The notes under the pieces are model-generated. The model was given only the letters and a program-made list of their open reading frames with translations, did not search any database and was not told the origin of the DNA. The translations under genes and the position numbers were made by a program. Positions 2,890 through 32,822 of a stretch of DNA of 64,000 bases are shown one piece after another. Origin of the DNA: Methylomicrobium sp. wino1. GTDB lineage: Bacteria; Pseudomonadota; Gammaproteobacteria; Methylococcales; Methylomonadaceae. The stretch lies in contig NZ_CP024202.1 of assembly GCF_003932755.1 (NCBI RefSeq), positions 1,240,001-1,304,000 on the forward strand, in the 5' to 3' direction. Every line of letters begins with the position of its first letter. Position 1 is the stretch's first letter.

Positions 2890-5158
2890 TAAGCCTGTCG
2901 GAGAAACCCATACGGAAGCGGAACTGAAGAGGAGGAACCGACTCTATACGATGTTGAGTCATATCAACCGGTGTATTATCCGCACGAAAGATCCTCAGGA
3001 GCTTTACTTTGCAGCTTGCCGCATCGCCATCGAAAGCGGCGGTTTCGCACTCGCATGGATAGGCTTGATCGACTCGGAAACTGGAAACCTGATACCGGTC
3101 GCCTCTGCCGGTAACGTCACGGTAACTCAGCTCAAGAATTTAAATGAAGGCAAATTCGACGTCTTATCGAACGACAAGGAAACCGCCGGCGGGTCGCGCT
3201 TGGCATCCTGGACCGAAATGTCCGAGCAATTAGGCTTGCTTGAAGGCGCATCCTTTCCGATACGGCTCGAAGGCAAGACCGTCGGCTCTTTCAATATCGC
3301 GGCAAAAGAACCGGGCTTTTTCCGCGACGCCGAAATCAACCTATTGCTGGAAGTGGTGGATGATATTTCGTTCGCGATCGACATTATCCGCCGAGAGGAA
3401 GAGCGGATCGTTGCCGAGAGTAAAATGCGTTACTTCGTCTATTACGACTCCCAAACCGGCCTGCCCAGCCGAGCGCTATTCGAAGAACGCTTGAACGAAT
3501 CTTGCTATAACGGAAACGCGCATCAAGTCGTTGTGATGGTCGTCAACCTTCGCAGGCTACAAATCGTCTTGCATTTACTGGAACCCGATACCGGTCTGGC
3601 GATTATCCGGACTCTGGTCGACAGACTCGAATCGGTATTGCCGGCCGTCCCTCGCGCACGCATCGACGAGGCAAAATTCGCCCTGCTATTGCAAGATCCG
3701 GAAGGCTTGCATGTCGCGGAAGAGCTGGCCTGGGAAGCTCATAAAGTCCTGACCGAGGCCATCGAGATCGACGGGCAAGAGTACTATCTCGACCCGTTCA
3801 TCGGACTCGCAAGATTTCCATTAGACGGCGAACCGAAGGAGGTTCTCAAACACGCCATACTGGCCGCATCTTCCCCCGATACCGATACTATTTGCCGTTT
3901 TTTCTTCGCCGATATGGATGAAGGCTCGCGGCGGCAACTGAATCTCGACACCGCCTTGCGCCGTGCTCTGGAGCGCAATGAATTTATTCTGCACTATCAA
4001 CCGCAATTGGATTTATCGACAGGCCGAATCGTCGGCGCCGAAGCCTTACTGCGTTGGCAAAGCCGCGATTACGGCTTGGTATCTCCGCTGAACTTCATCC
4101 CGCTGCTCGAAGAAAACGGCATGATAAACACGATCGGCGAATGGGTGCTGCAAGAGGCTTGCCGGCTCAATCGAAAATGGCAAGACGAAGGACTCCCTCC
4201 GTTACGCATGGCGGTCAATCTTTCGGCTAGACAATTTTATGGCGGCGATATTCCGAACATAGTCAAGCGAACTCTCGAAAAAACCGGTCTTGAACCGCAA
4301 TGGCTGGAATTGGAACTGACCGAGAGCATCGTACTGATGGATGCCGATAAAGTCATCCGTACGATGCACGAGATATCGGCTGAAGGCATCGGTTTCGCAT
4401 TGGATGATTTCGGTACCGGCTATTCATCGCTCAGTTATTTGCAGCGGCTTCCGGTTGACCGAATCAAAATAGACAAATCTTTCGTAGCCAATCTCACTTC
4501 TAATCCGAGCGATGCAGCGATCGTTCGCGCGGTCGTCGGAATGGCGCACAGTTTAGGCTTGAAAGTCATCGCCGAAGGCGTCGAAACCGAAGGACAACTG
4601 GGTTTTTTACGCGGCATCAACTGCGAAGAAATCCAGGGTTTTGTATTCAGCCGCCCATTGCCGCCCGATGATTTTACCTTGTTATTACGAGAGGGCCGAA
4701 GCATTCCGCCCAAGCAAATCGAGAAGCCGGAACGGATCGTATTACTAATCGACGACGAGTCGAATATCATTTCGGCATTGACGCGCGTATTACGACGCAA
4801 AGGATTTCGCATCGTCGGCACTACGAGTATTAAGGAAGGATTCGAATTGATGGCGATTCATCAACCGGGAGTCGTAATTTGCGACCAGCGCATGCCGGAA
4901 ATGACCGGAACCGAATTTCTAAGGCGGATCAAGGACATTTACCCCGACACGATACGCATCGTGCTGTCGGGCTATACCGAGTTAAACTCCGTGATCGATG
5001 CGGTAAACCACGGCGAAGTCTATAAGTTTCTGACCAAGCCGTGGGAAGACGAAGCGCTTTGCCAAGTAATCGGCGATGCGTTTAATATTTACGAATTACG
5101 GCAGGAAAATCGCGATCTTTCACGAAAGCTAAATACAAATCGAGCTATATCCGAATAG
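2876..5158 (+). CDS. GAF - degenerate GGDEF - EAL - receiver protein, predicted c-di-GMP phosphodiesterase
   Basis: 760 aa. A GAF domain covers about residues 20-175. A GGDEF-like domain follows (about 185-345) but its signature is replaced by RIDEAKF, so it should not make c-di-GMP. The EAL domain (about 360-605) keeps the catalytic set: EALLRW, NLSARQF, ELTES, DDFGTGYSS, IDKSF and AEGVET. A C-terminal receiver (about 620-740) has IDDES and the phospho-Asp in CDQRMPEMTG, and resembles receivers usually joined to HD-GYP domains. Location is cytoplasmic. It is the last gene of the operon and the likely output: kinase signals would reach c-di-GMP breakdown through the attached receiver. A receiver at the C-terminal end of an EAL protein is the less common order. 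Confidence 0.88.
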   Translation: MASNNKPVGETHTEAELKRRNRLYTMLSHINRCIIRTKDPQELYFAACRIAIESGGFALAWIGLIDSETGNLIPVASAGNVTVTQLKNLNEGKFDVLSNDKETAGGSRLASWTEMSEQLGLLEGASFPIRLEGKTVGSFNIAAKEPGFFRDAEINLLLEVVDDISFAIDIIRREEERIVAESKMRYFVYYDSQTGLPSRALFEERLNESCYNGNAHQVVVMVVNLRRLQIVLHLLEPDTGLAIIRTLVDRLESVLPAVPRARIDEAKFALLLQDPEGLHVAEELAWEAHKVLTEAIEIDGQEYYLDPFIGLARFPLDGEPKEVLKHAILAASSPDTDTICRFFFADMDEGSRRQLNLDTALRRALERNEFILHYQPQLDLSTGRIVGAEALLRWQSRDYGLVSPLNFIPLLEENGMINTIGEWVLQEACRLNRKWQDEGLPPLRMAVNLSARQFYGGDIPNIVKRTLEKTGLEPQWLELELTESIVLMDADKVIRTMHEISAEGIGFALDDFGTGYSSLSYLQRLPVDRIKIDKSFVANLTSNPSDAAIVRAVVGMAHSLGLKVIAEGVETEGQLGFLRGINCEEIQGFVFSRPLPPDDFTLLLREGRSIPPKQIEKPERIVLLIDDESNIISALTRVLRRKGFRIVGTTSIKEGFELMAIHQPGVVICDQRMPEMTGTEFLRRIKDIYPDTIRIVLSGYTELNSVIDAVNHGEVYKFLTKPWEDEALCQVIGDAFNIYELRQENRDLSRKLNTNRAISE

Positions 5159-7243: not shown

Positions 7244-7756
7244 GATAACCACAAAACCTGTTGTGCTGTGCACAATTGGACAAGACTTGGCACCGATCAT
7301 TTTTCTGGGGCTCAACGCTGAGCCAGGGGCGGTCCGCTGGCCATGCGTCAGCGGCACCGTCTTGATCCTGATGGGTGACTGACGCGCATCAGTTCGATGA
7401 GCGAATCACACGAGCGAGAAATCGGGCGCGTAGATAGCGAACTGAACGGAGTAACGATCATGAAACACAGGCAAATCGGCATGAGAAAAGACTGTCGGAA
7501 CAACGATTAAACCGGTAACCGGTGGATTTGTGGACGCGTCCAGCGGACCGGTCCGAGCAGAGCCGCGTGGATAAGTTATGGACAGCGTCCCTGTTGCCCA
7601 CAACTTACCCACACTCTCGGACCTCGCGACCACGAACTCCACCGGTTCAATAACAGGTTGAAAAGATTGATTCGCAAGACAGAGAAATCGAAAAAGGCAA
7701 AATTTGCTTGAGGGATTAGTTTGGCTTATTGACTACGACAGGCTAATGGGTGACCC
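7244..7756 (+). mobile_element. IS110-family right-end remnant (copy A)
   Basis: From 7286 to 7756 this is nearly identical (three or four visible differences) to 12010-12481, the non-coding region behind the intact IS110 transposase. A short shared block (GATAACCAC..ACCTG) also starts both, at 7244 and at 11937, but the DNA between the shared blocks differs in sequence and length (about 42 against 73 bases). No transposase is left in this copy. Identical 78-aa ORFs on the - strand occur in both copies, but they look like chance frames. Confidence 0.7.
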
Positions 7757-8226
7757 CTATTCATCTCTGTAGCTTGGTCCGCTGTGAATTTTTACGCATT
7801 TGCTCTGGGAACGAGCCGTTACTTTTTTCTTGAATCACTATTTGTTTGGCGCACCTGTTTGGTGCCGTACCGAACAGAATCTCACCATTTTAGAGCAGAT
7901 GCGCACGAACCGCTGTTCGACCGAGGTGCGAATGCCCGCATAAGCCCCATTTCCAGTCTTTTCTGGCACTTTATTTGCTTGATTGCAAGGTAGCGAATAC
8001 GCCAATGTCGGCGTTCAAAGATTCGCTTTGTCAAAATTAGCCAATGCTTACCGGTCTGGCAGATGCGTCTTCGACAAAGCGCAAATTTTGGCTAGTGCAC
8101 CGGAACCCCCCAATTCGAGACAAAGCAACGGCGCTTTACCCTTGACCGGGTTGGCGCCTTTTTTTTAGGAAATTCGTTTCCCGCAGTCCTTTCGATTTTT
8201 TATTTCTTGTCCGCCAGGAGTATTTC
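7757..8226 (+). promoter_or_regulatory. Long leader of the chemoreceptor gene, with possible attenuator
   Basis: About 470 bp without a convincing gene. It contains several complementary segments and ends with an intrinsic terminator (8130-8166) only about 60 bases before the chemoreceptor start. A terminator pointing into a gene suggests either an upstream small RNA or an attenuation leader. I compared it by eye with c-di-GMP-I and other common riboswitch cores and saw no match. Confidence 0.35.
8130..8166 (+). terminator. Rho-independent terminator in the chemoreceptor leader
   Basis: A GC-rich stem, GGCGC paired with GCGCC plus an inner ACCC/GGGT pair, is followed by eight T residues. It is on the + strand, ahead of the receptor gene. 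It would end any transcript coming from 7757-8130 unless antiterminated. Confidence 0.75.
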
Positions 8227-9408
8227 ATGTTTCGGCATAGCGTTTCGATACTTCAATCTTTTCTGAATACGATCGTATTTCGGAAAAAACTCCTTTTGAT
8301 CGTTATCAGCGCTTGGTTGCCCTCGGCTATTTTATTTGCTCGCTCGCTAAACGCTGGTGTGTTTTTTTCCGCTTACGAACTCGCAACGGTCGCATTGGCC
8401 TTTCTTGTCTGTATGCTGACCGCGGCCTCGGCCGCCGCGCGTGTCGATACCTTGCGTTTGGAGTTGAACTCAGCGTTCGAGTCTTTATCGGGCGGCGACT
8501 TCAGCGTTCGGTTGTTGCAAAACGGGACCGACGAAGCCGGAGCGTTGGCACGGGCGTTCAACGATACCGTTCGTTCACTGCAACGGCGGTTTATGCGGAT
8601 CGGCGATTCGATAGCCGAAACGGGACATTCGGCACAGCAGTTGAAAGAAAGTGCGTCCAGTGTTGCCGAACGCCTTGATACGCAAAGCGAAAACACCGAA
8701 ATGATTGCCGCCGCGATCGAACAGATGTCGGCGAGCATCGCCGAAGTCGCCAACCAGTGCCGAAATGTCGAAGAGAACTGCCGGTCTACGCAAGCGTTGA
8801 CGCAAAGCAGCAAAACCTCGATCGCACAATTGACCGGCGCCTTGCGTCTGTTGTCTGACGATGTACTGTCGGTTACCGATCTGATGCGCAATCTTGAGGA
8901 ACATTCGAAACAGATCACCCAAATCTCTGAGGTTATTAAAACCATTTCCGATCAAACCAATCTGTTGGCACTGAATGCTGCGATCGAAGCGGCAAGAGCC
9001 GGAGAGTACGGACGAGGCTTTGCCGTCGTGGCCGATGAAGTCCGTTCGCTAGCGGCGGGTGTCGGACGTTCGGCCGAAGAAATTACCGGTACGATCGAAA
9101 GCATCAGAGAAAAAATCCGGCAGGCGGCAACTTCGGTCGAACAAACACAAAGTAAAACGCGAGAAGGCGTGAAGAACGCTTCGATACTGGGTGAGGCCTT
9201 GAACGAAATTCATGGTTATATGGTAACGACATTCGACAATGTCAGTATGATCGCTACCGGTATCGAGCAGCAAAGCCAAGTCAGTACCGACATCGGACGC
9301 CGGATAGAAACCATTTCGTCGGGTGTTGAAAGTAATGCCCGATCGGCGCAGGAATCGGCCGATATCGCAAACCATCTGGCCGAACTGACGCAGCCGTTCA
9401 CCCATTGA
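8227..9408 (+). CDS. Methyl-accepting chemotaxis protein lacking a periplasmic sensor domain
   Basis: 393 aa. Two membrane helices lie at about residues 22-40 and 48-70 with almost no loop between them, so there is no periplasmic ligand domain. A HAMP-like linker follows (about 70-125), then a cytoplasmic signalling domain with the hairpin tip [16 protein letters not shown], the invariant contact site for CheA and CheW. A ribosome site (CAGGAG) precedes the ATG at good spacing. The next gene, 12 bp downstream, encodes a separate membrane-anchored NIT-like domain, so the sensing half may be supplied in trans. The family call is certain; the partnership is inference. Confidence 0.9.
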
Positions 9409-9420
9409 AAGGAGCATGCG

Positions 9421-10386
9421 ATGCCATTTCTCAGCGCTTTGATTATATTTACAGCCGCTTGTGTACTGCTGCTCGTTTCTCTAAAGATTCTGGTTTCTGC
9501 AGGACGAAGGAAAGCGTTGCAAACGCAACTGTCCAGTTTGGCCATGAGTTACGAGCTCAAGGAACTACTGATCAAGATCCAAATCCATCGAGGCATGACC
9601 GTGGCCTTTCTGAAAGGCGATACTTCGTTCGAATCCGCCATCGCCAAGAGGCGTCAAGAAATCGAGTGCGTATTCGAAACGCTGCGCGCAACGACCGGGA
9701 AAAACTCCGTTTATTTCGCCGAGTTGGATCGTCTATATAGTGATTGGCGGAGTTTGCGCGACCGTGCGTTCGGTTTGTCCTCTACGCGGTGCTTCGTCGA
9801 GCACAATCGTCTCGTCGATGCCGTGTTGTTTTTTGTGATGACCGTGGCTGAACAAAATCAATTGAAAACACCGAAACTCTTCGCGATCGAATATGTCGCC
9901 ATTATTTGGCAATTATTTCCGATTACGGCCGAATCCTTAGGCAGGATTCGGGCGGTAGGCAGCGGCATCGCCGCATCAGCGGCACCACAGGTTTTGGACC
10001 GTATTCAACTGGAGTTTTTGATCGGTAAGATCGAAAAGGCTCTTGGCCAAGTCGAAGGCCGGCTGCAATGCGTTCAGGAGGCGGACGAGGAACTCAAGTG
10101 TATATTCGAGCGCATTCATCGAGAATTGACGGATTTTATCGAGACGACGGCGGCGCAGTTGCTGGTGCCGGGCAAATCGACGATTTCTGCGGGCGAATTT
10201 TTTGATCGAGCCACGAGTTCAATGAATTCCGTTTATACACTCTACGATCGGGGGCATATGATGGTTGTCCGAAACGTAGAGGCAGGTTTTCAGGCAACCC
10301 GGGAGCGGGGCGGTTTTGTTTCAGGAACCATGCTGCTCGGTAGCCTTGCGGCGTTGATTTCGGCTATTGCGATATTGCCGACGTAA
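9421..10386 (+). CDS. Membrane-anchored NIT-like sensor domain protein
   Basis: 321 aa. One membrane helix is at the N-terminus (residues 3-27) and one at the extreme C-terminus (about 300-320), with a long all-helical middle. The segment 'IQIHRGMTVAFLKGD' and a later repeated helical bundle resemble the NIT (nitrate/nitrite-sensing) domain family, which normally sits as the periplasmic part of receptors. It has a strong ribosome site (AAAGGAG) and lies 12 bp after the sensorless chemoreceptor, so the two are almost surely co-transcribed. It has no signalling domain of its own. The ligand is unknown; the NIT call is moderate. Confidence 0.6.
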   Translation: MPFLSALIIFTAACVLLLVSLKILVSAGRRKALQTQLSSLAMSYELKELLIKIQIHRGMTVAFLKGDTSFESAIAKRRQEIECVFETLRATTGKNSVYFAELDRLYSDWRSLRDRAFGLSSTRCFVEHNRLVDAVLFFVMTVAEQNQLKTPKLFAIEYVAIIWQLFPITAESLGRIRAVGSGIAASAAPQVLDRIQLEFLIGKIEKALGQVEGRLQCVQEADEELKCIFERIHRELTDFIETTAAQLLVPGKSTISAGEFFDRATSSMNSVYTLYDRGHMMVVRNVEAGFQATRERGGFVSGTMLLGSLAALISAIAILPT

Positions 10387-10487
10387 ATAGTAAGAAGGGT
10401 TTCGAGTAGGACAGGTACCCCAAACGCGGTAAGAATGAAGGGGCCGGGTTGAGTTAATTAAAGGTGCATACCTACAACCGATTTGAC

Positions 10488-10697
10488 AGACTTGGACCTC
10501 AACAAACGAACTTGAAGAGTGTGACACTGGGATATTCTGACCTTCTTCTTTAAGCCCCTCAATATGACATTCAATAGATTCTCGAATAAGTTGCAAAGCT
10601 TCTTCTAACGATTTGCCGAGAGTTCTCAACCAGGAGGATCAGGGGCATAGGCGCCAAAGCTTGTTCGACCTTCTTCAATAGCAACCATGTAGCGCAT
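10488..10697 (-). pseudogene. Frameshifted hicB-like antitoxin remnant
   Basis: The - strand reads 'MRYMVAIEEGRTSFGAYAP' followed by DPPG and then a stop. Shifting the frame by one base continues as 'GKSLEEALQLIRESIECHIE' and on to a hydrophilic end, which together make the compact beta-beta-alpha fold of HicB antitoxins. A one-base loss at about 10625 explains the break. No hicA toxin is next to it. It is transcribed in the same direction as the integron cassettes at 12.7-14.5 kb, so it could be a displaced cassette; no attC is visible beside it. Confidence 0.6.
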
Positions 10698-10716
10698 GTA
10701 AACACGGTGGGGGGGG

Positions 10717-10780
10717 CAGGTCTTGAATTTTGCAAATACGTGCTTGCATAAACGAGCCTTGATGCAAATTACAAGACCTG
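10717..10780 (+). repeat. Stem-loop just upstream of the IS110 transposase
   Basis: An 18-base arm beginning CAGGTCTTG (10717-10734) is complementary to an arm ending CAAGACCTG (10763-10780), with two or so mismatches and a 28-base loop. It lies about 80 bases before the transposase start, in the region expected to be the element's left end. It could be part of the left end, a recombination-end structure or part of a guide RNA. Confidence 0.55.
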
Positions 10781-10861
10781 ATAATCATCTAGCCTGTCTC
10801 CCCGATCGGAACCCTCAGTGGTATAAAAAGGGTGATGATCGAAACAACCGAGGAGACAGAC

Positions 10862-11878
10862 ATGAAACTATACGGTGGAATGGATTTGCATTCAACGAAT
10901 GTGGTGACGCAACTGATCGACGAGCATGACCGGGTCGTGTACCGGAACAAGCAGGGCTGCGATTTGGTCGATATCTTGCGAGGCTTGGAACCCTTTCAAG
11001 ACAGCATCGAAGGCTTGGCGGTGGAATCGACGTACAATTGGTACTGGCTGGTCGACGGCCTGATGGAAGCGGGATACCGGGTGCATTTGGTTAACACGGC
11101 GGCGGTTCAGCAATACGAAGGCCTGAAATACACCGACGACGATACGGATGCGTTTTGGTTGGCGCATTTACTGCGGCTGGGCGTCTTACCGACCGGCACG
11201 ATCTACCCGAAGGAAAGCCGGGCCGTGCGGGACTTATTGCGCAAACGCAGCCAATTGGTCCGGCAGCGCACCGCGCATATTGTCAGCATCGAAAACCTCT
11301 ATGCGCGCAATACCGGCAGTCGGCTGAACAGTAATGCCGTCAAACGCCTGACCCAGGAGCAAGTTCAACAGCATTTCGCCGATCCGAACCTGGCGTTGGC
11401 GGTCGAGAGTAATCGGGTGATCCTGATGACGTTATCGGAACAAATCGAGGTGTTGGAAAGCGCCATCCTGACGCAAGCCCAACTGGATTCGCGCTACCGC
11501 TATTTGCTGAGCATCAGCGGCATCGGTCAAGTCTTGGCCTTGACGATCATGCTGGAAACCGGCGGTATCGAGCGCTTTCGGCAAGTCGGCAACTTCGCCT
11601 CGTATTGCCGCTGTGTGGACAGTGAAAAACTCAGCAACGGCAAAAAGAAAGGCCGGGGCAATACCAAAAACGGCAATAAATACTTGGCCTGGGCCTTTAT
11701 CGAGGCGGCCAACTTCGCGATACGCTACAACGACCGGGCGAAACGCTTTTATCAACGCAAGGCCGCCAAGTGTAACCGTGTCGTCGCACTCAAAGCGGTC
11801 GCGCATAAACTGGCCAGGGCGAGTTACTTCGTGATGCGGGACCACGTCCCCTTTGACGACACAAAATGTTTTGTATGA
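10862..11878 (+). CDS. IS110-family transposase (DEDD recombinase)
   Basis: 338 aa from the ATG at 10862, which has a good GAGGAG ribosome site; the frame extends ten codons upstream but that start is poorer. The N-terminal RuvC-like half starts MKLYGGMDLHSTN with the first catalytic Asp, and has 'VESTYNWYW' and 'DDDTDAFWLAHLL' acidic motifs. The C-terminal half has the 'LLSISGIGQVLALTIMLETG' helix-hairpin and a Ser-containing 'FASYCRCVDSEK' segment typical of the family. No break is seen, so it may be active. These enzymes are now known to use a structured RNA from the element's own end to choose targets. Confidence 0.9.
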   Translation: MKLYGGMDLHSTNVVTQLIDEHDRVVYRNKQGCDLVDILRGLEPFQDSIEGLAVESTYNWYWLVDGLMEAGYRVHLVNTAAVQQYEGLKYTDDDTDAFWLAHLLRLGVLPTGTIYPKESRAVRDLLRKRSQLVRQRTAHIVSIENLYARNTGSRLNSNAVKRLTQEQVQQHFADPNLALAVESNRVILMTLSEQIEVLESAILTQAQLDSRYRYLLSISGIGQVLALTIMLETGGIERFRQVGNFASYCRCVDSEKLSNGKKKGRGNTKNGNKYLAWAFIEAANFAIRYNDRAKRFYQRKAAKCNRVVALKAVAHKLARASYFVMRDHVPFDDTKCFV

Positions 11879-14774: not shown

Positions 14775-16211
14775 ATGCTCAGTCTTCCCGATGATTTGTC
14801 TCGTCAGTTCAATGCGCTATTGGATCAGAAACAGTGCCCTGAAAAACTCAAACTCTTTTATCGAAAATGGCTTCGTTTCTATTGGGATTTTTGTCACAAA
14901 TATCATCACGATCCTTCTCACCGCTCCAGCTTGCCGTTGTTTCTCGACAAACTCGACCAAAAAGGCCAATCGGCTCAACAACGAGAGCAGGCTCGCCAGG
15001 CTATTGTGCTGTTTTACCAAGTAAAAGCAACCGCCGATGCCGAAGACACCGAACTGCCAAGTAATGCAGTCCAAACCTTGCCGATGCAAGCTCCGCCAAT
15101 GCCGGACGTTTCGCATCAAAAGAGCTCGCCCGAACCGAATCACTCGCATCATCGATCACCACCTTATGAACACTCGCGGCATTCTGCCGCCTCCGATAAC
15201 AACCACCAAAATAATACGGTTGCTGAAAAACAAACCGGATGCAGTTGGGTTTTTGTTTTTGACGAGCTGACCCGTGAAATTCAATTACGCCATTATTCGC
15301 CGAAGACTTTGAAATCCTATCGCGGTTGGGCGCGCCGTTTGCAAGCGTTTACCCAAAGCAAAGATTACCGGAATTTGACGCAACAGGATGTGGTGGCATT
15401 TTTAAGTGATCTTGCCGTCGAGAAGAAAGTGTCTGCGTCGACTCAAAATCAGGCGTTCAATGCCTTGCTGTTTTTGTTTCAACACGTTTTGAAAAAGGAT
15501 TTCGGCGAAATCAAAGGCGTCGCGAGAGCCAAACGCAGGCCTTATATTCCGGTGGTCTTGTCCCGCGAAGAGGTCGAGTTGATTTTCGATCATCTCGACG
15601 AGCCGGTCGATCTCGTCGCCAAACTGTTATACGGTTGCGGGCTGCGGCTTTTCGAGTGCTTGAATCTGCGTGTCCAATGTTTCAATTTCGATGCCGGCGT
15701 TTTGACCGTCCATGACGGCAAGGGGCAAAAGGACCGAACGGTTCCGTTGCCGCAAACATTGATACCGGCATTGAAAAAACAGTTGCGAAAAGCCGCGGAT
15801 TTACACGAAGCCGATCTAAAAGCCAATTTTGCCGGTGTGTTCTTGCCGAACCAATTGAGTCATAAATATAAAAACGCCACCAAGGAATTCATCTGGCAGT
15901 GGTTTTTTCCGCAACCGTCATTAACGCTAGTTGCGGAAACCCAAGAACACAAACGCTATCATCTTCATGAGTCCATCGTACAAAAGGCGATCAAACGCGC
16001 GGTGAATGACGCCAAAATCACCAAGCGAGCGACAGCGCATACGTTACGGCATTCTTTCGCCAGTCATTTATTGGAGGCGAATTACGACATTCGCACGATT
16101 CAGGAGCTGCTGGGGCACAGCGACGTCAGAACCACGATGATTTATACCCACACCGTTCAGAGCAGGACCTTGAAGCAAGCCAAAAGTCCGTTGGATTTTG
16201 ATCAAGAATAG
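14775..16211 (+). CDS. intI: Integron integrase (tyrosine recombinase) with N-terminal extension
   Basis: 478 aa; typical IntI proteins are about 320-340 aa. The first 85 residues form an extra helical SAM-like segment, followed by a Gln/His/Ser/Pro-rich linker (about 86-152). The usual N-terminal core-binding domain starts at about 155 and the catalytic domain at about 260. Catalytic residues are R291, K316, H422, R425, H448 and Y457. The IntI-specific insert between them is clear: 'GVFLPNQLSHKY..ATKEFIWQWFFP' with a following 'YHLHES', which plain XerC/D proteins lack. It reads away from the cassettes, as expected. No frameshift, so probably functional; the extension is the odd part. Confidence 0.92.
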   Translation: MLSLPDDLSRQFNALLDQKQCPEKLKLFYRKWLRFYWDFCHKYHHDPSHRSSLPLFLDKLDQKGQSAQQREQARQAIVLFYQVKATADAEDTELPSNAVQTLPMQAPPMPDVSHQKSSPEPNHSHHRSPPYEHSRHSAASDNNHQNNTVAEKQTGCSWVFVFDELTREIQLRHYSPKTLKSYRGWARRLQAFTQSKDYRNLTQQDVVAFLSDLAVEKKVSASTQNQAFNALLFLFQHVLKKDFGEIKGVARAKRRPYIPVVLSREEVELIFDHLDEPVDLVAKLLYGCGLRLFECLNLRVQCFNFDAGVLTVHDGKGQKDRTVPLPQTLIPALKKQLRKAADLHEADLKANFAGVFLPNQLSHKYKNATKEFIWQWFFPQPSLTLVAETQEHKRYHLHESIVQKAIKRAVNDAKITKRATAHTLRHSFASHLLEANYDIRTIQELLGHSDVRTTMIYTHTVQSRTLKQAKSPLDFDQE

Positions 16212-16582: not shown

Positions 16583-17151
16583 AATGACCTCCTAGAGGAT
16601 GGAAGAACATTATTTTGCAAAAAATGGCAAGGCTAAACTTCCATGTTTTTCGCTGCCATTCGGGTTAATCCGGACATAATTTCCGCATTTCAAATTTCGG
16701 CATTCCGCTACTTATTTCAGCCCGCCTAATCTTGATTTACGAAAAATTACTCCATAAAAATACCCTGCATGATTTTCCAAAGACTTCATTAATTGGCGTC
16801 TTCGAAAATAAATTTATCCACTTTTCCTTTCATTTTTCTTTCATCTAGCAGCAAATAGACACCTATCTCCCAAAGTATGTATCCATATTGCGATGACTAT
16901 ACTCATCGGAGATCAAAATTCGGCACCGGGGTGCCCGTCAAAGGACGCCGTGAATACGTCCCTGTAGATACTCTATGCCAGCTCCATGCTGGCCCCTCAC
17001 CTAGCGTTAGGTGAGGGGCCGAGCACCCCGAGGCCTCCTCCGGCACTGCCGAAATTTGAAGTGCGAAAAGTATAATTCAATGTTAAACAGGCTAGACGAG
17101 CGCAAGGTGTAACCTAAGGACATTTGAAACACGCACTTAGCGTACCCGGCT
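16583..17151. other. Intergenic stretch with one dispersed repeat
   Basis: No gene seen. The right half is the repeat at 16911-17074; the left half (16583-16910) is AT-rich with no clear structure and should hold the promoter for the small gene at 16391. Confidence 0.5.
16911..17074. repeat. Dispersed ~150-165-bp repeat, copy 1 (second copy 34592-34737)
   Basis: Starts GATCAAAATTCGGCACCGGG and ends with CACTGCCGAAATTTGAAGTGCG, so the ends are inverted repeats (ATTCGGCA / TGCCGAAAT). The middle carries GTCAAAGGACGCCGTGAATA and a hairpin TCACCTAGCGTTAGGTGA, which the other copy lacks. Fragments of the right end (CCGAAATTTGAAGT) also occur near 42562. Confidence 0.7.
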
Positions 17152-19821
17152 TCAATCAGAAAGATCTGCATCGAATTTCTGCTTGGCCAATAGCTTCAGG
17201 AAGCTTTCGGCGTCCAGCGGGCGGCTGTAATAATAGCCCTGCACTTCGTCGCATTTTAATTCGTTAAGAAAAGCCGCTTGTTCTGCGGTTTCGACACCCT
17301 CGGCCAAAACGGTTAGTTTCAAACTGTGTCCGAGTGCGAGAATCGCTCGGGTAATGGCCATATCGTTGCTATCTTGCGGAATATCCATCACGAATGAACG
17401 GTCGATTTTCAGCTTGTCGACCGGCAGGCGTTTCAAATAACTGAGCGACGACTGCCCGGTTCCGAAATCATCGATCGCCAGGCTCACGCCCAATGCGCGA
17501 AGTTCTTCCATGATACGAACGTTCTTTTTCGCTTGACGCATGATATAAGTTTCCGTGATTTCGAGCTCTAGGTGCTGAGAAGGCAGTCCCGTTGTTGCAA
17601 GGACGTTGCCGACCGTTGCCAAAATATCGCTGCGTTCGATCTGCGCGCCGGACAGATTGACCGCGATCTGTTTGAATGCGAAACCGTCATCGAGCCATGC
17701 CTTGGCCTGACGGCATGCGGCCAATAGCACCCATTCGCCGATCGCGACGATCAGCCCCGATTCTTCTGCGATCGGAATGAACTTGTCGGGCGCGATCAGG
17801 CCGTGTTCGTGATGATTCCAGCGCAATAAAGCCTCGGCTCCGATCAATTCGCCGCCGGATAAGGCGAATTGCGGTTGGTAATGAAGATGGAATTCCTTGC
17901 GTTCCAGTGCGTCGCGCAGCTCACTTTCGAGAAAAAGACGTTCTTTCGCGCGCGTAGTTAGATACGTTTCGTAAAACTGAAAATTACCGCGTCCTTTTTC
18001 CTTGGCTCGATACATCGCAAGATCGGCGTGTTTGATCAAGGACATGGTGTCTTTGCCATCCTCGGGATAACAACTGATGCCAATCGACGTGCCGATCTCC
18101 AGCTTATGGCCTTGAACGATGAAAGGTCTAGAGAGGTACGCAATGATTTTGCGGGCGACCTTTTCGACATCGGAGCGGCTCCCGGTATTTTCGAGCAAAA
18201 TGATGAATTCGTCGCCCCCCAAGCGCGCGACTGTATCGTCTTGGCGCAAAGAACTCTTGATTGCGTGCGCGACCATGCGCAAAAGCTCGTCGCCGGCCGG
18301 ATGCCCGAGACTGTCGTTGACGTGCTTGAACCGGTCCAGATCAAGAAACAAAACCGCCAGCGGCTGGTAGTCGCGATTCGCCCTCTCCAGTGCATGCTCG
18401 CAGCGCTCGTTGAATAACTGCCGGTTCGGTAGTTCGGTCAAGGCATCGTAATAGGCCAGATGGTAGATATGTTTCGCGCTTTGCTTTTGTTGGGTCAAAT
18501 CGTAAAAGACGCTGATATAGTGTGTCACGCGTCCGATGGCGTCGCGCACCGACGATATATTTTGCCACAGTGGTATCAGTTCGCCGTTCTTACGCCGGTC
18601 CCAAATCTCACCCTGCCATTTGCCGTCCCGTTCGAGTGCGGCCCACAGACTGCGATAAAATTGCTTATCGTGGTGCTCGGATTTCAGCAAGCTCGGTTTT
18701 TGTCCCAACACCTCGTCGGACGAATAGCCCATGATTTCGCTGAACATGCGGTTGACCTTGACGATGCGCGTATTAGCATCGGTGATTAGAATGCCATTCA
18801 GGCTATTGTCGAAGACGCTCGCCGCGAGTTGCAACTGTTCTTCGGCTAAGCGTTGTTCGGTGATATCCTGAATCGTTCCGACCGACCGTAAAGCCCGCCC
18901 GGCATCGTCATAGTAGATGATGCAACGCTCGTGCACCCATTTGATTCGTCTGCCGGCCGCTAACAGACGATGTTCGATGTCGTAAGAACCATGCGTGCTT
19001 AGGGCGGATGTGAAAGCCCGGTCGACTGCGGCCCGGTCGGCTGGATAGACGAGTTCGAGAAAGTCCGCATAGTTACGGGGTATCGAAGCCGAATCGAGCT
19101 CGAAAATAATACACACTTCCTCCGACCAAGTGAGTTTGTCGCACGTCAAATCCATTTCCCAATGCCCCAGGCGGGCGATTTTTTGCGCCTCTTTCAGGCG
19201 TTTTTCGCTTCGGCTCAATCGCTCTTGTTGTTGTTTGAGCAGCGTGATATCGCTCGCGCAAATGACGGCGCCTTCTTCTTTGCCTTGAGGGTTGTGTTGC
19301 AGACTCGCCTCAAACCAATAATGGCGATAGCTTCCGTCGTGGCTTGCCAGACGGTGCTCAGCGGCATAGGAACCCGAACGCCGCACGACTTCGAACAGCG
19401 GAGAAAAAACGGACCACGGCAAACCGATCGCTTGTTCGACAAGCGCTTGTCGTTCGTCGGGATGCAACCAGTCGTCCAGCACGCGATTGTCCGGAATCGA
19501 ATCGGTTCCGGTCAACTCCTGCGCGCAACGCCGATTGACTTGGCGTATATGCCCATCAGGTCCCAGCACGATCATCATCGCGCCGGTCGAATCCATGACG
19601 CGACGGATGAAATTACTTTGATTCAGCTGATGTAGGTTGGCTTCCTTTAGCTCGTTACTACGTATTTCGAGCACCCGCAGCATCGAATCGGCCTGCTTGG
19701 CGTCGATCGACAATTGTTGCTCGAGCGCCGCGTTGGCGATTCGAAGCGCTTCGACTTCGACCCGCAAACGCGTCAGTTCCTCATTTAGGTGCGATTCATT
19801 GACGGGAAACTTGCTCGGCAT
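17152..19821 (-). CDS. PAS-PAS-PAS-GGDEF-EAL protein, c-di-GMP turnover, coupled to hydrogenase genes
   Basis: 889 aa from the ATG at 19821, which lies 26 bp inside the protease gene; the frame is open further upstream but earlier starts sit deeper in that gene. A coiled coil (about residues 10-65) comes first, then three PAS/PAC domains (about 70-190, 200-325, 330-450). The GGDEF domain is intact (RLGGDEF) with an RxxD inhibitory site five residues ahead, and the EAL domain is intact (GAEALLRW, NLSGAQ, ELEITET, DDFGTGQSS, AEGVET). So it could both make and break c-di-GMP. No membrane helix: a cytoplasmic protein. The tight overlap with a cytoplasmic hydrogenase suggests that H2 or redox state is its input, by protein contact through PAS domains. 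Confidence 0.88.
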   Translation of the reverse strand: MPSKFPVNESHLNEELTRLRVEVEALRIANAALEQQLSIDAKQADSMLRVLEIRSNELKEANLHQLNQSNFIRRVMDSTGAMMIVLGPDGHIRQVNRRCAQELTGTDSIPDNRVLDDWLHPDERQALVEQAIGLPWSVFSPLFEVVRRSGSYAAEHRLASHDGSYRHYWFEASLQHNPQGKEEGAVICASDITLLKQQQERLSRSEKRLKEAQKIARLGHWEMDLTCDKLTWSEEVCIIFELDSASIPRNYADFLELVYPADRAAVDRAFTSALSTHGSYDIEHRLLAAGRRIKWVHERCIIYYDDAGRALRSVGTIQDITEQRLAEEQLQLAASVFDNSLNGILITDANTRIVKVNRMFSEIMGYSSDEVLGQKPSLLKSEHHDKQFYRSLWAALERDGKWQGEIWDRRKNGELIPLWQNISSVRDAIGRVTHYISVFYDLTQQKQSAKHIYHLAYYDALTELPNRQLFNERCEHALERANRDYQPLAVLFLDLDRFKHVNDSLGHPAGDELLRMVAHAIKSSLRQDDTVARLGGDEFIILLENTGSRSDVEKVARKIIAYLSRPFIVQGHKLEIGTSIGISCYPEDGKDTMSLIKHADLAMYRAKEKGRGNFQFYETYLTTRAKERLFLESELRDALERKEFHLHYQPQFALSGGELIGAEALLRWNHHEHGLIAPDKFIPIAEESGLIVAIGEWVLLAACRQAKAWLDDGFAFKQIAVNLSGAQIERSDILATVGNVLATTGLPSQHLELEITETYIMRQAKKNVRIMEELRALGVSLAIDDFGTGQSSLSYLKRLPVDKLKIDRSFVMDIPQDSNDMAITRAILALGHSLKLTVLAEGVETAEQAAFLNELKCDEVQGYYYSRPLDAESFLKLLAKQKFDADLSD

Positions 19822-20263
19822 ATTTTTCCAGTAGAACGAAGGCATCGTCGACAGCTTGGCGCACCGGTTTTGACAAGCCCGGACGGAACGGTGCCGCTCC
19901 AAGGATTTCCGCGGCGATGATCTCGATGCGTGGGCAGTCCGGCAACGCAGAGACAGCCTTTAACAAATAGCCTACGCCGATGCCGTGGCCCGGTAACGTG
20001 ATTTCGGCGGTAACAACATTCGGCGATAATCGGCTTAATGTCCCTGGTATGCCGCCCGATGCGACGGCGTCGACGACCATCACCTCACTGCACCCTTGAA
20101 ATAACGCTAATGCCGCCAGACCGGGCGTTCCGGCGTCGAACACGCGCACGTTATCCGGCAGCGGCAGCGCCGCTAGCCGTTGGTAAACCGCCGGACCGAA
20201 ACCGTCATCACCGTGGAGCGGATTACCGAAGCAAACGATATGACATAATTGCCGATTACTCAT
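19796..20263 (-). CDS. [NiFe]-hydrogenase maturation protease
   Basis: 155 aa from the ATG at 20263, which overlaps the large-subunit stop (ATGA). The upstream in-frame extension lies inside the large-subunit gene and is not real. Motifs of the HyaD/HupD peptidase family: GNPLHGDDGFGP with metal-binding Asp, and 'VVDAVASGG' with the second Asp and 'LPGHGIGVG' carrying the likely His ligand. This enzyme removes the C-terminal tail from the large subunit after nickel insertion; the large subunit here has such a tail, so the pair is consistent. Followed directly by the GGDEF-EAL gene. Confidence 0.88.
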   Translation of the reverse strand: MSNRQLCHIVCFGNPLHGDDGFGPAVYQRLAALPLPDNVRVFDAGTPGLAALALFQGCSEVMVVDAVASGGIPGTLSRLSPNVVTAEITLPGHGIGVGYLLKAVSALPDCPRIEIIAAEILGAAPFRPGLSKPVRQAVDDAFVLLEKYAEQVSRQ

Positions 20264-21789
20264 GGCCCGAAACGAAGCCTCGTGCCGGTGTTCAGCACAT
20301 GTACCGTGCACACTAGGCACGGATCGTGGGAGCGAATGACATGCCCGATTTCTACGGGATCGTCCGGAACCTGAACGCTCAGTCCGACTAGGCTTTGTTC
20401 CCAATGCCCCGGCAAGCCTCCGCTGTCTCTAGGAGAGGCGTTCCAGGCGGTTGGCGTGATGATTTGATATTTTTCGAAGACACCGTCTTTGATTTTGAGC
20501 CAGTGCCCGAGCGCCCCGCGCGCGGCCATGATCAGCCCGTATCCTTCGCCGTCGGTTTCCTGTGTTTTGGCCGGATTCAAAATATGCGGCTCGTGTAGAT
20601 TCGCTGTTAACTCGTCGAGTATCAGTCGCGCTTGCTTCAATTCGACGGCGATTCGCCTGACCCGCGCGAATTGCCGAAGCCAAGCGCTGCCGCCTTCGGC
20701 TCGGTGCAGCGACGCAATCAATGCATCGCCGCCGATCAAAAGCTCGGCCAACGGTCCGGTCTGTACCGCCTTATCACCGTAGCGCGGCGCCTTCGCCCAG
20801 GTATAGCGGTCGCTGTTCGGCTGAAAATCGGGGACGGTTTCGCCGTTCCACGGATGCTGCCCGCCGTCATAAGGCCGAAACCAGGAATGACGAACGTGCT
20901 CATTGATCAATTGTTGATCGTAAGGCTCGACCGTGCCGCTTCCGCCGTCGTAAAAACCACCCGGCAGCAAACGCGCGTCGTGCGGCGAGGACCAACGGTC
21001 GGGATTGCACCAGGCACCATAGCTGAGCATGTGCGGCGTACCCGAGGCGCACAGGTGTAGGCCGAGCGACCGTGCCGCGCGGCTCATCAAACCCAGCGCG
21101 CTGCCGGCATGCGCCGGCGTATCGAGCCAAGCGAAATAGCGCTCAGCATCTTCCAAGGCCAGCCAATCGTCGAGCGAAGCGCCGATGACGCGCCGTTCGT
21201 ACCAGCGCTGAATCTCATCCAATACCGAGCGGCACGCCAACACACGGCGCAAATCGGCCGGCGTCGTCACGCCGCCGGGCAGCATATAGGATGAATGCGG
21301 CCATTGCCCGCCGAAATGCGCGACGATTTCGACGACCTTCCGCGTTTGGGCCAACGTTTCGAGATAAATCGAACCGCGAAACGGTTCGAGAGCGTCGACC
21401 GCATCGTCGAACCAGTTGTGCTGAGCATAGCGTCGATGGCAAAAATCGGGCGCGAAAAACAGAAAAGTTTGACGTAAATCGTTTTGTATACCTTCGGCAA
21501 TCAGGCAAAGATTGCGGATGCGCGTCGCATTCGGCGGCACCGGGGTTCGCCAGGCATGTTCGAGCGCGAGCACCGCCGAGTACAAATGAGCCGTGCCGCA
21601 GATGCCGCAGACCCTCGGTGTGATCACCAGCGCATCGCGGGGCGCCCTGCCCATCATGATCTGCTCGAAACCGCGATACAGTGTGCCGACGGTCCGTGCC
21701 TCCGTGACGACGCCGTCGTCGAGCACGAGCGCGATTTCGAGGTCTCCCTCGACGCGGTTCAAATTGATGTTGACTTCAATCGTGGCCAT
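20260..21789 (-). CDS. [NiFe]-hydrogenase large subunit
   Basis: 509 aa from ATG at 21789, one base after the small-subunit stop. Nickel-iron ligands are all present: RVCGICGTAH (C61, C64) near the N-terminus and DPCLVC (C491, C494) near the C-terminus. After the terminal His497 there is a 12-residue tail for the maturation protease. Sensor-type (HupV) large subunits usually lack this tail, so this one needs processing and is catalytically competent in principle. No signal peptide. The overall length and the 'GTLYRGFEQIMMGRAPRDAL' start fit the group 1h/group 2 lineage of cytoplasmic or non-Tat enzymes. Which subgroup cannot be fixed without a tree. Confidence 0.92.
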   Translation of the reverse strand: MATIEVNINLNRVEGDLEIALVLDDGVVTEARTVGTLYRGFEQIMMGRAPRDALVITPRVCGICGTAHLYSAVLALEHAWRTPVPPNATRIRNLCLIAEGIQNDLRQTFLFFAPDFCHRRYAQHNWFDDAVDALEPFRGSIYLETLAQTRKVVEIVAHFGGQWPHSSYMLPGGVTTPADLRRVLACRSVLDEIQRWYERRVIGASLDDWLALEDAERYFAWLDTPAHAGSALGLMSRAARSLGLHLCASGTPHMLSYGAWCNPDRWSSPHDARLLPGGFYDGGSGTVEPYDQQLINEHVRHSWFRPYDGGQHPWNGETVPDFQPNSDRYTWAKAPRYGDKAVQTGPLAELLIGGDALIASLHRAEGGSAWLRQFARVRRIAVELKQARLILDELTANLHEPHILNPAKTQETDGEGYGLIMAARGALGHWLKIKDGVFEKYQIITPTAWNASPRDSGGLPGHWEQSLVGLSVQVPDDPVEIGHVIRSHDPCLVCTVHVLNTGTRLRFGP

Positions 21790-21790
21790 C

Positions 21791-22732
21791 TCAAACGTCC
21801 ATTTTCTTGTCTTTGACGCGTTCCGGCGCAGCGGCGCGGGCAAGATTCTTGTAGGCCATGTACCGGGGGCGTTCGACGCCCAGCGGCAAACGCAACGGAA
21901 TGTCGCCGACTTTCTCAGTCAGGAACAAATCGGCGTCACGTGGGAAGCTCGGCGACGTGCAACCGAAACAAGGCACGCCGGCGCGGGTCTTGCTGCTGGT
22001 GCCGTTCCACAGATCGCTATTGCATACCGCTTGCGTCATCGGCCCTTGGCAGCCGAGATTGAAAAACAGACAGGCTCTTCCGCCCGGTTCGTTTTCTTCG
22101 ATGTCGTATTCGTGATACTCGTTGCGAGTGCAGCCTTGATGAACGACGGTATTGAAGAACGCCTTGGGACGATTCAGTTCATCCAGCGGTAACGGCAGTC
22201 CGGCGGCGAGCCAGGCCAGCGTCTGGGTCATGGCGTGGGGATGTGCCGGGCAACCGGAGACGTTGACGACGGGAAGGCCCGCGCGCGAACGCCATTCCGG
22301 CGGCAACAGACCGCCCGGAGCCGAACGGTTGTATTGCAGGCCGATACAATCACCCGGATTCGGCGCCGCGGCATGAACGCCACCGTAGGCAGCACAGGTG
22401 CCCATCGCGACGACCGTACCGGCCCGCTCTGCCAATTCACGCGCGATATCCATGCGCGCCCGGCCGCGGTAGCTGTCATACAGACCGGTACCGCGCGGGG
22501 CCGTGACGATGCTGCCTTCGACGCAAAGTATGTCCAACGCTTGTTCGCCGTTGACGATGCGTTCGAGCAGCGCGTCGTGCTCGCGCATCGACGCGCCGGA
22601 CAACGAGGGGTGCCATAGCAATTCAACGCCGTGAGCCGAAAAAATTTGTTCGAGGCTCGGTGATTCGGCACTCAATAGCGCCAGCGAATCGCCGCCACAG
22701 GCGCCTGTCTGTAGCCAGAATAAGGTAGCCAT
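21791..22732 (-). CDS. [NiFe]-hydrogenase small subunit, cytoplasmic type
   Basis: 313 aa from the ATG at 22732; 19 further codons upstream look non-native. No Tat signal and no C-terminal membrane helix, so it stays in the cytoplasm. Electron-relay ligands: C12, C113 and C161 for the proximal cluster; H198, C201, C221, C228 for the distal; C237, C255, C258 for the medial. The expected second proximal Cys is Asp15 (GACGGDS). Such a 3-Cys/1-Asp site is known from actinobacterial-type (group 1h) enzymes; the related Huc-type group 2 enzymes also vary here. First gene of a four-gene overlapping unit; no hyp genes or membrane partner nearby in the window. Confidence 0.9.
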   Translation of the reverse strand: MATLFWLQTGACGGDSLALLSAESPSLEQIFSAHGVELLWHPSLSGASMREHDALLERIVNGEQALDILCVEGSIVTAPRGTGLYDSYRGRARMDIARELAERAGTVVAMGTCAAYGGVHAAAPNPGDCIGLQYNRSAPGGLLPPEWRSRAGLPVVNVSGCPAHPHAMTQTLAWLAAGLPLPLDELNRPKAFFNTVVHQGCTRNEYHEYDIEENEPGGRACLFFNLGCQGPMTQAVCNSDLWNGTSSKTRAGVPCFGCTSPSFPRDADLFLTEKVGDIPLRLPLGVERPRYMAYKNLARAAAPERVKDKKMDV

Positions 22733-22860
22733 CGTTTTCGTCTCATTTGAAGTAAAACATTGCATTATAGGGAAATTGCTTAACTTCACAACACATCGCT
22801 AGATATCCCCATATCTTTTCATTTTTAGACGTTTTTTCAATAGAAAGGGAATACTTCGAC
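22733..22860. promoter_or_regulatory. Upstream region of the hydrogenase unit
   Basis: 128 bp, AT-rich, between the hydrogenase small subunit and a doubtful ORF on the other strand. It should carry the promoter for the hydrogenase unit. I see no clear inverted repeat or -24/-12 box. Confidence 0.3.
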
Positions 22861-23076
22861 GTGGCGAGCGTGCAAGATACCGCTCAGAATTTTGGGCTCG
22901 GCGGTGGCGGTTACGCCGATGACCTGGATGCGATGCTTTGCTCATTCGGCGCGATCGGTTTGGTGGTGAATGAGATCAATAGGGACATGGGTTTGCTCGA
23001 CTTGACGCCCGAGCTCATCACGCCCGCAATTCAGGGCAAACTCGCCTACATTCACGCACTGGCGTGGGGAAGATAA
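22861..23076 (+). CDS. Doubtful small ORF, 71 aa
   Basis: A 71-codon frame with a GTG start, divergent from the hydrogenase unit. Residue use is ordinary (MASVQDTAQNFGLGGGG, then a hydrophobic and acidic stretch), with a purine-rich AGAAAGGGAA about 12 bases before the start. The opposite strand carries a frame of similar quality, so coding is uncertain. It could be a fragment of a larger lost gene. Confidence 0.25.
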   Translation: MASVQDTAQNFGLGGGGYADDLDAMLCSFGAIGLVVNEINRDMGLLDLTPELITPAIQGKLAYIHALAWGR

Positions 23077-23231
23077 GTCGATTGGCATGGCGACCAATGC
23101 GACAAGAATGACGATGCGGTTTGTTTTTGTTTCAGTATTGTCTAAGGAGGCTTCGGGGAGTGCGGCCGACATCTGTCAATCGAATCCTCCTTCCTTGCGA
23201 TATTAGAATGAAGTTATTTCATGCTCGTTCC

Positions 23232-23654
23232 TTAGCAAAATAAACCGGCGGCATGAATGCCTGTGATCGCGCAACGTTCGTCTTGATCGGAGACATCGCC
23301 GGAGATGCCTACCGCACCGAGAATTTTGTGGTCGGCATTGCGAATCAATACGCCGCCCGGCACGGGCATGACTTTACCTCCCGCTAGGCCGATCAGCGCA
23401 TTCATGAAGTCGGGGCGTTGCTCGGCGACGGTGGCAAGGCTTCGCGAGGACATACCCATGTTTACCGCACCCCAGGCTTTGGCGATTGCGACTTGCTCTC
23501 GAATCATCGTGGCGCCGTCTTCACGTTGCATCGCTTTGAGATGGCCGCCTTCGTCCAACACGACGATCGTCAGCGGTTCCAGGTTGAGTTGGCGGGCATT
23601 GGTTAATGCGACATGAATGATTTGATTGGCTTTTTCCAGAGTTAAGGCATTCAT
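23232..23654 (-). CDS. GlcG/HbpS family protein
   Basis: 140 aa, the standard length of the haem-degrading/GlcG family. It starts MNALTLEKANQIIHVAL, has 'VLDEGGHLKAMQR' and 'PVPGGVLIRN', and ends with 'GAVGISGDVSDQDE', all hallmark pieces. Members are small soluble proteins found near glycolate oxidase, propanediol use and haem-binding systems; the biochemical role is poorly known. No signal peptide here, so cytoplasmic. It seems to be a single-gene unit between the hydrogenase region and tesA. The family is clear; the function is not. Confidence 0.85.
   Translation of the reverse strand: MNALTLEKANQIIHVALTNARQLNLEPLTIVVLDEGGHLKAMQREDGATMIREQVAIAKAWGAVNMGMSSRSLATVAEQRPDFMNALIGLAGGKVMPVPGGVLIRNADHKILGAVGISGDVSDQDERCAITGIHAAGLFC

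Positions 23655-31151: not shown

Positions 31152-32822
<1,671 letters not shown>

Follow-up and report, generated by a model that had tools for sequence, protein, structure and literature searches.

Four tightly packed genes of Methylomicrobium sp. wino1 probably encode a cytoplasmic sensor of H2 or redox state that docks on a signalling protein and tunes cyclic di-GMP (c-di-GMP). They lie on the minus strand of a 64,000-nucleotide stretch of DNA (contig NZ_CP024202.1, positions 1,240,001 to 1,304,000; hereafter the window) and code for the small (SSU) and large (LSU) subunits of a group 2c [NiFe]-hydrogenase, a hydrogenase maturation protease, and a protein with three PAS domains followed by GGDEF and EAL domains, whose N-terminal domain (NTD) would be the docking site. 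Comparison with related loci suggests that these hydrogenases keep one conserved helix-PAS front end and that the signalling output behind it is exchangeable. The locus is real and well conserved, and a preliminary description of the window was correct in outline; the class itself had already been named in print. Added here are the front end shared behind differing outputs, the fusions of protease and kinase, and the strict co-occurrence of LSU and NTD. None of these three was found in the open-licence literature, which does not cover the defining study of Greening et al. 2016, nor did the same literature yield an experimental study of group 2c or a hydrogenase shown to feed c-di-GMP.

Organization of the Operon

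The four genes occupy positions 22732-17152 and their junctions (SSU/LSU, LSU/protease, protease/GGDEF-EAL) measure 1 bp, −4 bp and −26 bp; the coordinates bear out each of the spacings given in the preliminary description. We infer from them that the genes form one translational unit, and a sigma-70-like site ahead of the SSU gene fits this organization. The site is a consensus match only (10 of 12 letters), the only one that good in 16600-23300, and its letters are identical in three same-genus genomes. The features are the following:

22764..22791, minus strand: sigma-70-like site TTGTGA-16-TATAAT, ~30 bp ahead of the SSU start
21791..22732, minus strand: SSU, [NiFe]-hydrogenase small subunit, 313 residues, without Tat signal; first ligand motif CGGD (C12, D15)
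20260..21789, minus strand: LSU, [NiFe]-hydrogenase large subunit, 509 residues (PF00374), group 2c clade; both CxxC motifs intact
20263..20298, minus strand: C-terminal tail of the LSU, 12 residues following DPCLVCTVH, presumably cleaved off by the protease
19796..20263, minus strand: hydrogenase maturation protease (TIGR00072/HycI; PF01750), 155 residues
17152..19821, minus strand: PAS-PAS-PAS-GGDEF-EAL protein, 889 residues
19201..19821, minus strand: NTD, 70-residue helix and first PAS domain (residues 1-207), retained where outputs differ; proposed docking module
18871..19134, minus strand: second PAS domain (PAS_3, residues 230-317), domain match
18484..18819, minus strand: third PAS domain (residues 335-446), domain match
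17986..18456, minus strand: GGDEF domain, GGDEF motif intact, with an RxxD site five residues upstream of the motif (RQDDTVARLGGDEF)
17218..17922, minus strand: EAL domain; motifs EAL, VNLS, LEITET, IDDFGTG, KIDRSFV, AEGVET and QG all found, among which the catalytic residues presumably lie

The 26-bp overlap holds if translation of the GGDEF-EAL gene begins with the ATG at 19821; a TTG at 19902 is also in frame. All three junctions are unchanged in three same-genus genomes (L027-L029). Elsewhere the last junction overlaps by 4 or 8 bp in 33 of the 52 rows measured (earliest possible start used), so the longer overlap is a local detail. In one of the three genomes (G004, locus L028) the sequence upstream of position 4578 departs from that of the window and of the two other relatives until ~77 bp before the SSU start, and the −35/−10-like site is retained despite the differing upstream sequence.

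The SSU, which matches PF01058 and PF14720, begins right at the catalytic domain, which leaves no space for a Tat signal, and the hydrogenase is predicted to be cytosolic. The operon holds no gene for a membrane or electron-transfer subunit and no hyp gene was seen close to it; the preliminary description had likewise noted the lack of a Tat signal, of a membrane partner and of nearby hyp genes. A search of the genome (a single contig of 5.06 Mb) limited to the HypA and HypD families found their only matches ~2.2 Mb from the operon, and the protease is the sole PF01750 match in the genome. The missing hyp genes are not a general feature since hyp genes adjoin the operon in relatives (L032, L033, L082, L083 and L087; L091-L093, L095, L097, L099 and L102): hypA lies just past the GGDEF-EAL gene in several of them, and hypC, D, E and F directly precede the SSU gene in the Vibrionaceae loci.

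Class Assignment

HydDB group 2c is designated “Diguanylate cyclase-linked (putative)”, with the remark that it “may sense H2”; the HydDB text on the group gave it an undetermined role in 2016, with possible H2 sensing and regulation through cyclic di-GMP production (PMC5037454). The passages of PMC4853749 on the group repeat this proposal, name Methylobacter tundripaludum as the top match to a 2c protein, and quote the 2c L2 consensus as SFDxCLVCTVH, yet also file an SHD-bearing protein as 2c. Occurrence of group 2c in Methylobacter is stated in PMC12810054.

A tree of 96 LSUs was built by a quick method, with long branches flagged among the 2b and group 1 references (L069, L117, L035 and L030 were excluded as partial or because the organism was already represented). 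The window LSU and that of M. tundripaludum (L079), whose locus carries the same four genes, share an 86-row clade that adjoins group 2a and is apart from group 2b (Shimodaira-Hasegawa-like approximate likelihood ratio test (SH-aLRT) 94). The window LSU is outside both the HoxC/HupV (2b) and the Huc/Hup (2a) clades, each with an SH-aLRT of 100, and scores 353 bits to Huc versus 633 for the 2a anchor L055. Two subclades make up the 86-row clade, one whose L2 motif reads SHD or AHD (63 rows, SH-aLRT 99; hereafter the SHD subclade) and an SFD subclade (23 rows, SH-aLRT 97). The window motif is SHDPCLVCTVH, against the SFDxCLVCTVH of the quoted consensus. By the position of its LSU in this sequence tree, as well as by its linkage to a diguanylate cyclase/phosphodiesterase gene, the window operon is a member of group 2c. 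The preliminary description proposed to place both subunits in a hydrogenase tree; the tree built here puts the LSU in the 2c clade beside 2a. The proposed sensory subgroup linked to second-messenger or kinase genes that it mentioned matches HydDB group 2c.

Conservation of the Neighbourhood

Loci were confirmed by LSU similarity alone, and those studied are the best 80 of at least 582 candidates. More than 2.5 kb of sequence is available downstream of the LSU gene in 70 of them; of the rest, L136 could be judged and nine end too early. All 70 have a signalling open reading frame (ORF) on the same strand within 1.8 kb downstream (69 identified by script and L133 by hand), and a signalling gene was also found in the 1.2 kb available in L136. 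The script had scored L133 as “none” because the ORF start is far upstream; the ORF (7677-11207) matches the HoxJ kinase seed and was counted as a kinase. The partners comprise 30 GGDEF-EAL proteins, one GGDEF protein and 40 histidine kinases, a count of signalling ORFs within the distance in which intervening small genes were not excluded locus by locus. The most distant partners start at 1.1 kb (L119) and 1.7 kb (L082, a split ORF). Of twenty partners checked with Pfam (19 from the loci and one from genome G038), one proved to be a PAS-GGDEF protein and 19 were kinases, many of these carrying receiver and Hpt domains. None of the four group 2a relatives judged (L038, L055 and L056 by script, L182 by annotation) has a downstream signalling gene; L038 and L055 have a sigma-54-type regulator upstream.

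The same order of four genes, which the preliminary description proposed to look for in other genomes, recurs in Methylococcales and in other Proteobacteria, another set being carried by a plasmid of Ideonella dechloratans. The neighbourhood is conserved in relatives, and the refuting condition that the preliminary description had named for the opposite case did not hold. Of the five same-genus genomes searched, G001 (79% complete) and G005 yielded no group 2c LSU.

The Conserved N-Terminal Domain

In an AlphaFold model (mean predicted local distance difference test score 93.7) the NTD consists of a 70-residue helix and, after it, a PAS domain. The SHD subclade has 22 kinase-type partners, of which 21 score 110-190 bits with a profile built from 34 NTDs of GGDEF-type partners. 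In the 22nd (L097), as in the GGDEF-type partner of L082, the NTD is found on a separate, split ORF; counting both, all 60 assessable SHD loci have an NTD. The 35 other signalling ORFs of the loci, used as a control, reach at best 45.6 bits (the HoxJ-type kinase of L040), the next score being 24.3. Among 101 genomes, that of the window included, the NTD scores at least 91 bits in 11, which are exactly the 11 with an SHD LSU, and 20-22 bits in three further ones; the 11 co-occurrences are not independent because the genomes are related. The window's own genome has 46 GGDEF matches, beside which no second NTD match was found.

The fewest changes from GGDEF to kinase number four on the LSU tree over all 2c rows, and likewise four on the NTD tree. 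The clearest switch is that of Roseateles and Paucibacter, whose kinases are nested in a 21-row, otherwise GGDEF-EAL, LSU clade (support 100). The NTD tree places these kinases at the base of that clade, at the end of a long branch (support 95). In six loci of one clade (L098, L100, L101, L112, L113 and L116) the protease and the NTD-bearing kinase are fused in a single ORF, as confirmed with Pfam for L098 and L101.

A relation to the kinases of known H2 sensors was searched for in both directions. The HoxJ-type set holds seven kinases, five annotated beside named hydrogenase sensor genes and two (L040, L181) assigned by position. Each of three NTD profiles places 7 of 7 above 46 signalling ORFs of the window's genome, a control that includes 38 of the 44 other GGDEF places. 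One profile exceeds the best control by a small margin (27.1 versus 25.6 bits), the two others by a modest one (38.1 versus 34.8; 40.5 versus 35.7). In the reverse search a profile of the HoxJ N-terminus gives many partners at least 36 bits, up to 108; it takes in the start of the kinase part, where a few of the higher matches fall.

Several observations weigh against the proposed sensor that docks on the NTD. With the reverse HoxJ profile the window protein scores no more than 23.1 bits, its best match being at the NTD, when PAS controls of the same genome reach 35.3 and other ORFs of the loci 40.2. Inside the SHD subclade the LSU tree demands a minimum of only two output changes, and most kinase partners of the SFD subclade have weak or no similarity to the NTD. 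The fold predicted for the NTD is that of an ordinary PAS domain, and none of the 50 PDB matches listed stands out as an informative relative. Finally, a genome of Methylomonas koyamae (G015) has a second NTD protein that is not beside a hydrogenase. This is a hybrid kinase with the NTD at its start (L184, 6414-9425, minus strand), possibly a second client; no hydrogenase gene is present in the 10.7 kb around it.

Because the forward search was positive and the reverse search mixed, common ancestry of the NTD and the docking part of HoxJ is plausible only, and kinship with HoxJ was dropped as firm proof. Assignment of a cofactor to the NTD was likewise given up, the 50 Foldseek matches listed being PAS/LOV-type proteins at large, DosP and LOV proteins included.

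Active Sites, Tail and Protease

We take the first cysteine pair of the SSU to ligate the proximal cluster. Its second cysteine is replaced in all 63 SHD SSUs (53 Asp, 10 Glu); the same position is Asn in 4 of 4 group 2a sequences and also in the solved 2a enzyme Huc, and Cys in four aligned 2b sequences. All three clusters of Huc are [3Fe-4S] (PMC10017518). Since the cysteine is replaced as in Huc, the 2c proximal cluster is, by analogy, probably unusual too. On the output side, the GGDEF motif is intact in 38 of 39 GGDEF-EAL partners, that of the window included, the exception being SGDEF in L096; 37 of 39 have the EAL signature, which is absent from L066 and from L107, an ORF that runs into a contig end. 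The GGDEF and EAL domains of the window protein both look active from their motifs; net phosphodiesterase action would be our guess.

A tail of 12-16 residues is found in 65 of 65 SHD-motif LSUs with a complete C-terminus (two organisms counted twice), including 22 with a histidine kinase partner. It is absent from the HoxC proteins of pHG1 and Afipia and from the LSUs of L040 and L041 (2b), so the 12-residue tail of the window is, as stated in the preliminary description, unlike known H2 sensors. Among the LSUs of the SFD subclade, that of L121 is tailless and those of L127 and L129 have tails of 5 and 6 residues. With the seed used, no protease was found near L121 and L127, which both adjoin a kinase, nor at L123, L130 and L132, where the tail is present. 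Tail and protease are common to group 2a and look ancestral; they are missing from 2b and a few SFD rows. As SHD tails are kept whatever the partner, the tail is no sign of an energy-conserving role; the use of tail and protease as an argument for such an enzyme was dropped, which weakens the earlier suggestion that they hint at an enzyme reporting flux.

Proposed Mechanism and Rival Explanations

In the mechanism we consider likely, the SSU-LSU dimer would be matured by Hyp proteins acting in trans and by the adjacent protease, would remain cytoplasmic and would react with H2 or with its own redox poise. It would deliver no electrons to an energy chain. The dimer would sit on the NTD of the GGDEF-EAL protein and alter its activity, by which H2 might shift local or global c-di-GMP. 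The input from H2 or redox state to c-di-GMP claimed in the preliminary description is supported in part: the comparative tests fit it and it agrees with the published 2c proposal. The sequences show the gene linkage, the intact motifs and a front end common to partners with different outputs; docking, H2 as the signal, the lack of an electron acceptor and the direction of the output are inferred. A further hydrogenase of the genome (L042), which has NuoEF/HoxF-like subunits and a gene content like that of HoxFUYH, could make or use the sensed H2.

Retention of the active-site cysteines, the tail and the protease, together with the respiratory nature of Huc, the closest solved relative, would suit a catalytic uptake hydrogenase that passes electrons to an acceptor of some kind and whose flux is reported to the GGDEF-EAL protein. 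We find this unlikely, given an operon without electron-transfer gene, the signalling gene of all 70 loci with more than 2.5 kb downstream (L133 by hand) and its lack in the four group 2a relatives judged. It is more improbable still that the signalling protein responds less to H2 than to how the hydrogenase is assembled (nickel supply, tail cleavage). The protease does lie between LSU and partner in most SHD loci and forms one ORF with the partner in six, yet the tailless L121 and L127 with its 5-residue tail, no protease being found for them with the seed used, stand beside kinases all the same. The 2b LSUs studied here are also tailless, and group 2b sensors function without a tail.

Gene proximity without functional contact, in which the hydrogenase genes would merely accompany a common GGDEF-EAL gene, has in its favour that GGDEF genes abound (46 matches in this genome). 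Linkage across many families and with two output types, the protease-kinase fusions and co-occurrence in 11 of 11 cases among related genomes make it highly improbable, and plain chance adjacency was dropped as largely refuted by the linkage in 70 of 70 loci and the conservation of the NTD.

The sensor reading may be carried further, tentatively and with considerable doubt: groups 2b and 2c would share a portable helix-PAS docking front end through which the same H2 sensor can be plugged into c-di-GMP enzymes or kinases; the 2c protease would belong to the signalling complex, so that the output may report assembly as well as H2 state; and NTD kinases distant from hydrogenases, such as that of M. 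koyamae, would be second clients. The window offers a compact four-gene test case, in a genome of a methanotroph family, for a proposed class of H2 sensors, and comparison has narrowed the likely contact site between sensor and output to one 200-residue module. If the reading is true, methane oxidisers would use H2 as a cue that governs attachment or motility.

Other Features of the Window and Related Genomes

Three further genes of the window were recorded:

14775..16211, plus strand: integron integrase (TIGR02249, 392 bits), ~0.9 kb past the end of the GGDEF-EAL gene
10832..11878, plus strand: IS110-family transposase (NF033542, 184 bits)
31437..32822, plus strand: “alternate” F1F0 ATPase beta subunit (TIGR03305, 872 bits)

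From the integrase gene alone, a candidate chromosomal integron may adjoin the operon. Another cluster of the same genome (L043) encodes a NuoB-like subunit along with a weak match to PF00374. In genome G007 (L041, 784-10673, plus strand) a 7.4-kb stretch with other ORFs separates the HoxB-like from the HoxC-like gene, as if the sensor operon had received an insertion.

Comparison with Known Systems

HydDB describes for group 2c the arrangement of the window, a cytosolic hydrogenase adjoining a diguanylate cyclase/phosphodiesterase gene (PMC5037454). Many relatives in the window clade are paired with histidine kinases instead, for which reason the name “diguanylate cyclase-linked” is too narrow. 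In [FeFe] group C, an unrelated enzyme class, HydDB likewise proposes sensing, there through kinases, chemotaxis proteins or phosphatases. Group 2a (Huc, Hup) is the nearest clade, and the role of Huc is respiratory (PMC10017518). Its members likewise have the tail and protease and a replaced second cysteine in the first pair of the SSU; they differ in having Asn rather than Asp or Glu at that position and, in the four judged, in lacking a downstream signalling gene. Group 2b (HoxBC/HupUV with HoxJ/HupT) shows the same pairing of a hydrogenase with a PAS-bearing signalling protein. It differs from the window in its LSU clade, the absence of the tail, the CGGC motif of the SSU, the kinase output, and the lack of a protease gene between the hydrogenase and signalling genes.

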